The notes under the pieces are model-generated. The model was given only the letters and a program-made list of their open reading frames with translations. It had not been told where the DNA came from and did no database searches. Source: Polynucleobacter sp. MWH-Berg-3C6 (GTDB lineage Bacteria > Pseudomonadota > Gammaproteobacteria > Burkholderiales > Burkholderiaceae). From it: a stretch of 64,000 bases of DNA. Numbering within the stretch: the stretch's first letter is position 1; each line of letters begins with the position of its first letter. Positions 18,785 to 22,128 of this stretch are shown in pieces. The stretch covers positions 62,001 through 126,000 of the forward strand of contig NZ_JACVPN010000001.1 of the NCBI RefSeq assembly GCF_018881855.1, read 5' to 3'. A program made the translations under genes and the position numbers.

Positions 18785-19116
18785 TTGGCAGTAAGTAAGC
18801 GCACAGCCGGTTAAATTGGAGATTAGACGGTTGGATAGTTTAAGAAGTCAGCAAAAACAGACTCAAATCCGAAAACCCTTGCTCAAGGGTGCCTGGGCTA
18901 TTCTCTCTATTTTTTCCAGCACATTTAAGAAGCCGTTGTCCTTCGGGGCCACGGCTTTTTTTCCAGGATTCATTAGCGTGCAGCACTTAGCATCAAGCCG
19001 CGCGCCGATGAATGGCTCGCTCGTCAGCTCCAAAAGGTTGCAAAACCAGGCGGAATTAGATGGTCGGGTCTTCTTAATGTAGTTTGTACTAATCCTCACG
19101 TGAAGGAGTAACACAC
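18785..19116. other. 332-base gap between nrdB and the histone-like gene
   Basis: No supported gene. It holds a small hairpin (ACCCTT-GCTC-AAGGGT, 18875-18890), a strong terminator at 18929-18965 and, after it, about 150 bases that should contain the promoter of the histone-like gene. A GAAGGAG ribosome site lies just before the ATG at 19117. An open plus-strand frame at 18816-19082 crosses the terminator and shows no family signal. Confidence 0.6.
18929..18965 (+). terminator. Intrinsic terminator of nrdAB
   Basis: Stem AAGCCGT / ACGGCTT, extended by G-C pairs after one mismatch, is capped by a TTCG-type loop and followed by seven Ts. It lies about 145 bases after the nrdB stop, leaving a long structured 3' UTR. 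Confidence 0.85.
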
Positions 19117-19508
19117 ATGGCAACAAAGAAAAAACCTGCTGCAAAGAAACCAGCTGCTAAGAAAAAAGTAGCTGCTAAGAAACCAGCTGCTAAAAAAGTA
19201 GCTAAAAAGAAGCCAGCTGCTAAGAAGCGTCCAGCTGCTAAAAAAGCTGCTGCTAAGAAGCCTGCTGCTAAGAAGCGTCCAGCTGCTAAGAAAAAAGCTG
19301 CTGCTAAGAAGCCTGCTGCTAAAAAAGCCGCTAAAAAGAAGCCAGCCGCTAAGAAGCGTCCAGCTGCTAAAAAGCGCGTAGCAAAAAAAAAGTAAGTAAG
19401 CCTGCTGCGAAGAAAGCGGGCTCTGCTGTAAAAAAGCCCGCGGCTAAGAAAGCTGCAATAGCATCAACTGCCGCTGCTTGGCCCTTCCCAACTGGCACAC
19501 GTCCTTAA
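19117..19508 (+). CDS. Histone H1-like Lys/Ala-rich protein with apparent -1 frameshift
   Basis: A DNA-binding, chromatin-like protein made almost only of K, A and P in PAAKK-type repeats; part of the gene repeats with a 51-base period (about 19246 and 19297). In the zero frame the ORF is 92 codons and stops at 19393-19395. The stop directly follows nine As ending in A-AAA-AAG. In the -1 frame the reading continues KVSKPAAKKAGSAVKK, then the tail AAAWPFPTGTRP, and stops at 19506-19508, giving 130 residues, just before an intrinsic terminator. The same composition continues across the shift, so the tail belongs to the gene. Programmed -1 frameshifting, transcriptional slippage, a strain-specific mutation and a homopolymer sequencing error are all possible. 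Confidence 0.8.
19383..19392 (+). other. Slippery A9G run, candidate frameshift site
   Basis: Zero-frame codons are GCA AAA AAA AAG TAA. The last seven bases, A-AAA-AAG, are the strongest known bacterial -1 slippery heptamer (as in dnaX). A 7-bp hairpin GCGGGCT / AGCCCGC occupies 19416-19441, 23 bases downstream, farther than usual for a stimulatory element. One extra A in the transcript would also restore the long frame. Confidence 0.6.
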
Positions 19509-19526: not shown

Positions 19527-19554
19527 AAGGGGTCTCTAATGAGACCCCTTTTTT
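19527..19554. terminator. Intrinsic terminator after the histone-like gene
   Basis: Perfect 10-bp stem AAGGGGTCTC-TAAT-GAGACCCCTT followed by six Ts. It begins 19 bases after the -1-frame stop and faces the end of the minus-strand kinase gene. Confidence 0.9.
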
Positions 19555-20604: not shown

Positions 20605-22128
20605 TTAGGGGTAAACCACCCGCACTCGATAGCCTGCAGCATTTTGCGGCAATTGAATTGGTAAGGCGGTTTGGATTTGCTCCCCGGAGGCGATACCCGT
20701 GCGCAAAAAATCAGGATGAGACTCTTGCCAAGCAGTAGGTAACCATTCTTTTGGAGAGAGTTGGATCGATTTGATCTCAGTCTCTTCTGCATCAGTGAGA
20801 GAAATTTCTAAATTTGGGGCTAAAACAGGTATCGCAAGACGATTTTGTATTTCAACTTGCAGTATCGATTGATTTGCGCCGCTTTTAAGGCCCTCTCGCG
20901 CGTTTTCAGGCGACAGGGCGGCTGAAGTTATTTTCCACGCAGCAAAATCGCTTACAGAGCGATTTACGCAGCCTAGTACGCGACACAATTTTTCATCAAC
21001 ATGCTGCAAAACTGAAAATGCGCTGACTAAAAAAGAATTTGATGTGCCGTCAATGCGTGGTGCTAATGCTGGAAGCAAAGAATTTCTCGAAAGATGCTCA
21101 CCAAATACCAGCAGCAGAACAAAAAGGCAGGCTAATAGAGCTAACTTAACGCTTTTTTTTTGCGCAGGCGCAGCAAAAACAGTTGTTTTGTGGATGTCTG
21201 TCGATAAAGTTCCGTGCAAGCAAACCCATCCGTCATTATCTTTCCAAACAGAGAGCTTTAGCCATTGGCTGTAGGTGGCAATCACCTCGTCTGCTTGGCG
21301 AGCAAGAACTCCAGATAGAACAATTTGTCCGCCTGGACGCATTTTGTTGACCAATGCTGGAGCGAGTACTTGAAGCGGGTTAGCCAAGATATTAGCCATC
21401 ACGATCTCGTACTTAGTCTGCGCAGCAAGCTCTGGCGCATCTTCATTAGGTAGAACAAACTGAATAACGGTATTGTTAATTTGTGCATTGCTGCGTGCGG
21501 CAACCATCGCTTGAGGGTCGATATCAGTACCAACAACAGGATTGCAGCCAAGTTTTGCGGCCGCAATGGCAAGAATGCCGGAGCCACAACCGTAATCGAG
21601 CAAACTTTGATTGCTTAGTTTGCTCTGTTCTTCGAGCCATAACAAACACAAATGGGTAGTAGGGTGGCTACCGGTGCCAAAAGCTAAGCCTGGATCAACG
21701 GCCAAACAGATCGCATTTGGATCGGTGGGGGCATCATGCCAAGAGGGTACGACCCAAATTCGTTTACCAATTGGGATGGGGGCAAATTGGCTTTGGGTCA
21801 GTCTTACCCAATCTTGCTCTTCAACAATTCTTTCTTGGGGGGCTGATAACTTAAAGCCAGCCTCTTTTAGAGAGGCAAGTAATTCAGGAATAAATTCTGC
21901 GCTAGCTGAATCATCAATGTCGGGATTAAAGAGCGCGGTAACTGAAGATCTATCCCAGGCTTGCACTTCAGGGGATAGGCCGGGCTCTCCATAGAGTGGA
22001 TTCTCATCGTACCCACCAGCCGCATCATCCTCTACGGTGACAGATAGTGCGCCCAATTCCAGTAGCGCATCGCCTAAGGGTTCCGCTGTTTCAGCAACTA
22101 CCGTGAAGATCAGTTCACGATAAGACAT
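20605..22128 (-). CDS. prmA: PrmA-DUF3426 fusion: ribosomal protein L11 methyltransferase with membrane-anchored tail
   Basis: 507 residues. Residues 1-305 are a complete PrmA, which trimethylates ribosomal protein L11: FGTGSHPTTHLCL (150-162), SAM motif I LLDYGCGSGILAIAAAKLG (176-194), TDIDPQA, and MANILANPL (244-252). A linker (306-325) leads to a membrane helix (about 327-343) and a C-terminal domain (about 365-507) of DUF3426 type: LCRVLGC, WKITSAAL, IQNRLAIPVLAPNLEISLTDAE, SPKEWL. In related bacteria the DUF3426 protein is a separate gene beginning with a zinc ribbon; no CxxC pair is left here. An A9 run lies at the junction. accC is 16 bases upstream. Confidence 0.85.
   Translation of the reverse strand: MSYRELIFTVVAETAEPLGDALLELGALSVTVEDDAAGGYDENPLYGEPGLSPEVQAWDRSSVTALFNPDIDDSASAEFIPELLASLKEAGFKLSAPQERIVEEQDWVRLTQSQFAPIPIGKRIWVVPSWHDAPTDPNAICLAVDPGLAFGTGSHPTTHLCLLWLEEQSKLSNQSLLDYGCGSGILAIAAAKLGCNPVVGTDIDPQAMVAARSNAQINNTVIQFVLPNEDAPELAAQTKYEIVMANILANPLQVLAPALVNKMRPGGQIVLSGVLARQADEVIATYSQWLKLSVWKDNDGWVCLHGTLSTDIHKTTVFAAPAQKKSVKLALLACLFVLLLVFGEHLSRNSLLPALAPRIDGTSNSFLVSAFSVLQHVDEKLCRVLGCVNRSVSDFAAWKITSAALSPENAREGLKSGANQSILQVEIQNRLAIPVLAPNLEISLTDAEETEIKSIQLSPKEWLPTAWQESHPDFLRTGIASGEQIQTALPIQLPQNAAGYRVRVVYP
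21153..21161 (-). other. A9 run at the PrmA/DUF3426 junction
   Basis: On the coding strand the codons are CAA AAA AAA AGC GTT. With one more A (or a -1 ribosomal shift) the frame becomes CAA AAA AAA AAG CGT TAA and stops after 327 residues; with one fewer A it stops at TAG after 328 residues. Either slip would free PrmA from the membrane domain. Confidence 0.5.

Follow-up and report, generated by a model that had tools for sequence, protein, structure and literature searches.

A candidate programmed −1 frameshift site in a histone H1-like gene of most sampled Polynucleobacter species

To our knowledge, few programmed frameshifts have been demonstrated in ordinary (non-mobile) bacterial genes. 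In E. coli dnaX, −1 frameshifting takes place at an A_AAA_AAG site with a downstream hairpin. Frameshift stimulators generally begin 5-8 nt downstream, according to passages of PMC4066793. In a few bacteria the dnaX layout is reversed: the longer product is made by the shift and the zero-frame stop abuts the site, as described in part of PMC5009743. Slippage can also take place during transcription, and slippage on nine As is described in the same source. According to passages of PMC1088944, selection against slippage usually becomes visible once a run reaches nine, a conserved run of nine As (A9) is likely to be used, and some IS elements likely slip on eight As. As for proteins, Hc2-like proteins occur in Bordetella, Burkholderia and Ralstonia, as noted in part of PMC2848022.

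The locus described here combines elements of these systems in a single lysine-rich gene. It lies in a window of 64,000 nt from Polynucleobacter sp. MWH-Berg-3C6 (the window being the whole stretch of DNA that was analysed), whose genome assembly is 2.0 Mb in 28 contigs. On the forward strand, a zero-frame ORF of 92 aa, made up of K/A/P repeats, extends over 19117..19395 with its TAA stop included, and an SD-like GAAGGAG (19102..19108) is placed 8 nt 5' of its ATG. The ORF ends in GCA AAA AAA AAG TAA, in which a nine-A run (19383..19391) overlaps the zero-frame slippery heptamer A AAA AAG (19386..19392), and the stop codon (19393..19395) abuts the heptamer. The −1 frame starts with GTA at 19392 and stops with TAA at 19506-19508, so that the tail of 38 codons plus stop (19392..19508) adds VSKPAAKK...AAAWPFPTGTRP after the A run. 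The initial annotation had read both the stop directly behind the run and the 38-codon continuation ending in AAAWPFPTGTRP correctly. It had also named a terminator past the tail and a hairpin downstream of the site. A GC-rich hairpin with a T-run (19527..19554, forward strand) can indeed be seen by eye about 18 bases after the stop of the tail, but a consensus scan did not list it. As a frameshift stimulator this terminator was rejected, beginning more than 130 nt past the heptamer. The downstream hairpin that is likely to be relevant is instead a predicted one at 19400..19421 on the same strand (GCCTGCT / AGCGGGC, 7 bp, loop of 8), which lies 7 nt 3' of the heptamer and fits better as a candidate stimulator. 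A second possible hairpin (GCGGGCT / AGCCCGC, 19416..19441, forward strand) has an arm in common with it, and the two are mutually exclusive: they compete for GCGGGC within 19400-19441, and in the clade of locus L022, where the first is missing at that place, only the second is clearly seen. A promoter scan found none, and the three Rfam matches were all far under their gathering scores.

The lysine-rich protein is likely a histone H1-like DNA-binding protein, DNA binding being suggested by similarity to the NF038053 family. Scores of the short form (32.2 bits) and of the joined form (38.1 bits) fall below the NF038053 cut-off of 80 bits, and the tail gives a weak match to the end of the profile (184-195 of 195; 15.4 bits, E 0.017). 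The C-terminal WPFPTG tail that characterizes the family is present, also by sequence. Among relatives with the tail fused in one frame, L213 (97.5 bits) and L223 (120.5 bits) pass this cut-off and L007 (70.9 bits) fails. With PF07382 (HC2, gathering score 40 bits) the short form reaches 25.9 bits and L007 35.7 bits, both below, while L213 (83.8 bits) and L223 (138.4 bits) pass. WPFPTG-type tails in H1-like proteins of Burkholderiales, which the initial annotation had pointed to, are real, being found in other genera and in NF038053. A protein search with a fused relative returned 32 matches, several of them of low identity or without an alignment, and was left unused. Outside the H1-like proteins, a 505-aa protein without a Pfam match from another genus of the family (L181:1488-3005, minus strand) ends in LDPAAAWPFPTGGAK, which is close to the H1 tail and would be consistent with a portable interaction motif.

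The genus set consisted of 186 genomes. The WPFPTG DNA pattern was present in 170 of these, yielding 171 loci (one genome carries two), and two more loci (L237 and L238) were added by DNA similarity from genomes with no match to the pattern. The total is 173 loci from 172 genomes, whose assignment to Polynucleobacter follows the names on neighbouring records. Of the 16 genomes that lacked the pattern, 11 had no match at the DNA level, including G134 (99% complete) and G161 (92% complete), and three more had weak or partial ones; tail-less genes are undercounted because loci were picked via the tail. A pfkB-type kinase neighbour, from records with Polynucleobacter names or metagenome bins, was used to find loci; it is present in 189 of the 203 loci tested, outgroup genera counted in, and the 14 loci in which it was not found include contig ends and chance loci.

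The 173 loci fall into 141 that are split with a −1 tail, 28 that are fused and four with the tail in another frame, all locus counts here being inflated by shared descent. The split is shared far too widely to be a chance arrangement. The class of L063 was assigned by hand. Of the four loci with the tail in another frame, L024 and L055 have an A8 out of phase, and L008 and L057, on which two frame classifications disagree, look like contig errors. A-AAA-AAG followed by a stop closes the K/A-rich frame in every split locus (TAA in 140, TAG in one), and the A run is A9 in 129, A8 in nine, A10 in one and A6 in two, namely L060, which has an additional A10 upstream, and L237, a worn-looking gene. 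The heptamer is retained in 11 split loci with fewer than nine As (the nine A8 and the two A6). In L237 (genome G033) a G interrupts the A run, yet A-AAA-AAG-TAA is intact; this gene may be decaying, given its WPSPTG tail and the acidic residues in its repeats. A second set of 80 titled loci, which overlaps largely in species with the first, contains 69 loci split at heptamer plus stop, five fused and one in another frame; of the remaining five, three have no tail in the stretch and two no classifiable ORF. The split is found with A9 in P. sinensis, P. yangtzensis, P. necessarius, P. meluiroseus and P. brandtiae, and with A8 in P. campilacus and P. nymphae, while the P. sphagniphilus gene is fused. 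P. hirudinilacicola (L252, the same site as L024) carries an out-of-phase A8. For the out-of-phase A8 of L024/L252 and of L055, real loss, use by RNA polymerase and assembly error are all candidates.

The tails of the split loci are open in the −1 frame in 141 of 141 cases, over a length of 37 to 46 codons, and 138 end in WPFPTG(T/S/A)RP. Summed column entropy of the 141 tails is 10.8, 9.5 and 27.5 bits at codon positions 1, 2 and 3, respectively. With no tail interrupted and most of the variation at third codon positions, the tail is under selection as a translated sequence. Its first codons show little synonymous variation (GTA for 134 of 134 Val, and GCG in 116 of 116 cases at the third tail Ala), which fits an overlapping signal, with the stop codon explaining part of the effect. 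These observations weigh on three accounts of the locus that do without recoding. Single-base errors in A runs are common in some data, and the initial annotation had kept a homopolymer error as an alternative. L008 and L057 (two of 173) do resemble such errors, but the same phase recurs across 141 of 173 independent assemblies, and this conservation of site, stop and tail throughout the genus rules out a sequencing error at the A9 and leaves assembly error with next to no credibility. The notion that the tail is a separate gene with its own start codon fares no better. An in-frame TTG occurs in many relatives' tails (107 of 122 Leu codons of LNPAAAW), but other genera carry the tail fused, and the window tail contains no in-frame ATG, GTG or TTG, by which a separate gene is ruled out there. 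The split could, finally, be a fixed accident that leaves the cell with the short form alone and the tail as a remnant. Bordetella can do without its related BpH1 (stated in part of PMC2848022), as such an accident would allow, but open tails with mostly third-position variation, together with the retained stop and heptamer, make this very improbable.

The comparison of A-run length and tail across related genomes, which the initial annotation had proposed, thus recovers the same split in most loci, and it also sheds light on origin. Elsewhere in the family, the tail is in one frame in 27 of 30 loci (from one genus) and, in a further search of fifteen genera, in 24 of 30 loci, three of these 24 being short (65-80 aa) and less repetitive; leftover outgroup loci are other proteins or chance matches. 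The one-frame state of these other genera makes the split a derived one. Some fused members of Polynucleobacter have A10 GTA GTT at the same place, in a single frame. On a pfkB tree (186 rows, 627 columns) fused genes characterize the outgroup and the deep branches; the split groups contain four nested fused loci (L037, L039, L121 and L172). Placing the two split groups in one clade is not rejected (AU p 0.31, or 0.247 with L060, for 82 of the 186 pfkB rows); an earlier topology test that omitted the nested fused loci (p 1.3e-5) was badly posed and has no bearing on origin. With outgroup and deep branches fused, fused loci nested and a single origin not rejected, the split was gained at least once, possibly more often, and was followed by several returns to one frame. 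The initial annotation would have taken one-frame relatives that lack a slippery run as evidence against its reading. One-frame relatives exist, but as outgroup genera, early branches or the four nested loci they show the source of the split rather than refute it. The tailed form matches the family's ancestral one-frame protein; most of the genus has made two frames of it and kept both. Sister lineages still hold the one-frame form, so it is possible to follow directly how recoding was gained, reversed and maintained.

The best reading of the locus is probably programmed −1 recoding at A-AAA-AAG-TAA, mainly by the ribosome, with a short and a tailed form predicted, as the initial annotation had suggested and as the conservation of site, stop and tail supports. 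Ribosomes would slip back one base at A-AAA-AAG-TAA in the last codons of the K/A-rich gene; without a slip a 92-aa form lacking the tail would result, and with a slip a 130-aa form with the WPFPTGTRP tail, so that the ratio of the tailed to the short form would be set by how efficiently the ribosomes slip. The hairpin 7 nt 3' of the heptamer may stimulate the slip, and both forms presumably serve the nucleoid. Besides conservation across species (141 of 173 loci, 69 of 80 titled loci) and an open −1 frame that is selected as protein, the site has the X_XXY_YYZ form, as A AAA AAG, in all 141 split loci. Elsewhere in 129 of the ORFs, A_AAA_AAG is depleted, accounting for 19 of 379 KK pairs after A against 57.7 expected, or for 10 of 85 against 21.1 expected when repeated contexts are taken once (p 0.009, uncorrected for descent). 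A_AAA_AAA (seven As) is likewise depleted, with 29 seen against 151.3 expected, so run length may account for some of the avoidance; the last four codons were excluded from both counts, so the site itself is uncounted. Runs of A6 are common in these ORFs (844), yet rare in the phase that gives A_AAA_AAG; in other long ORFs of the window, A6G runs are too few to separate phases.

The 19400-19421 hairpin has a z of −2.25 in the window, and its 7-nt spacer is within the range usual for stimulators. At least six of its seven pairs form in 122 of the 141 split loci, against 0, 6, 0, 1 and 9 of 141 when the partner is shifted by −2, −1, +1, +2 and +3; a −3 shift (113 of 141) is invalid as a control, since a longer loop lets it meet the true register. 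Against codon shuffles the signal is moderate (mean z −1.1; nine of 48 distinct windows under p 0.05). No SD-like stimulator was found within 20 nt upstream in any of the 141 loci. A pattern search, which could miss odd tRNAs, found no tRNA-Lys in the genome other than one with the UUU anticodon.

RNA polymerase slippage on the A9 is a serious rival to ribosomal slipping, although on balance we consider it rather unlikely as the main mechanism. A fraction of the mRNAs would then contain ten As and be translated into the tail without a shift; selection would act on the run, and the heptamer would follow from the Lys codons. The retention of A9 in 129 of 141 split loci, although the heptamer requires only six As, counts against the ribosomal reading and is also what polymerase slippage would select; the window's run is one of just five exact A9 runs genome-wide, and the avoidance of A_AAA_AAA noted above points the same way. 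A conserved A9 in a different codon phase in the nearby prmA-DUF3426 gene likewise makes the run the common element, and in L024 and L055 the phase of the A8 would not let a −1 ribosomal slip reach the tail. Set against a threshold of at least nine As, however, the tally includes nine A8 and two A6 loci besides the 129 with A9 and the one with A10 (of the A6 pair, L060 has its upstream A10 and L237 is worn); the A8 loci are compatible with slippage given the IS elements that likely slip on eight As. The rarity of A6 runs in the A_AAA_AAG phase and a hairpin at ribosomal distance in 122 of 141 loci also speak against it. We rank ribosomal slipping first, with the ribosome and not mainly RNA polymerase as the probable agent, and polymerase slipping second; both may act.

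The prmA-DUF3426 fusion ORF (20605-22128, minus strand) is the next gene but one from the H1-like gene, and contains an A9 (21153-21161, minus strand) at the join of its PrmA and DUF3426 domains. In 62 of 80 sequences (the window plus 79 of the 80 titled loci, one locus having no PrmA) A9 is the longest run at the join and keeps the same phase; of 66 A9 sequences, 53 have a stop in the −1 frame one full codon past the run. A slip there would end translation just past PrmA, releasing PrmA alone. In G123 and G143, which are fused-H1 members of the genus, no single open frame covers both PrmA and DUF3426. Of ten loci with A8 at the H1 site, seven (L260, L264, L266, L272, L289, L299 and L304) have a run of A7 or A8 in prmA; of 62 with A9 at the H1 site, 58 have A9 in prmA, three have A6 and one is not covered. 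Because the loci belong to few clades, this link of run lengths may be shared descent. It is a speculative and, in our judgement, doubtful idea that this is a two-gene slippage locus, in which a slip at the H1 A9 adds the tail, a slip at the prmA A9 drops DUF3426 and a shared slip rate sets both. If true, the ribosome, tRNA-Lys modification or RNA polymerase would, through that slip rate, set the forms of a nucleoid protein and of the ribosomal L11 methyltransferase. The loci with A8 at the H1 site, which mostly have A7 or A8 at prmA, would look like a joint tuning of the two sites.

The main-text literature searched contains no description of a frameshift at the H1 site, which may nevertheless be listed in a database cluster; the portions of PMC3711429, PMC5009743, PMC4066793, PMC10885494 and PMC9227772 that were covered mention none in an H1-like gene. 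Most sampled species of this freshwater genus carry the candidate recoding site, which lies in the gene for a nucleoid-type protein; gene finders that halt at the TAA would overlook the tail in the majority of species.

The class of mechanism is known; the gene and the genus-wide spread are the new parts. NF038053, PF07382 and BpH1 proteins resemble the present one in their K/A/P repeats and in the same C-terminal tail, but are encoded by single-frame genes; the present tail lies out of frame, and the window protein scores below the curated cut-offs. The conserved nine-A run is common to this gene and to cases of transcriptional slippage on A9 such as Thermus dnaX and IS elements (parts of PMC1088944), from which it differs in having shorter runs with the heptamer in 11 of 141 loci, plus a predicted hairpin behind the site. 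With E. coli dnaX it has the A_AAA_AAG site and the predicted downstream hairpin in common, and with the reversed dnaX layout the predicted longer product by shift and the abutting zero-frame stop; unlike dnaX, the gene encodes a nucleoid-type protein rather than a polymerase subunit, and no SD-like stimulator was found within 20 nt upstream.
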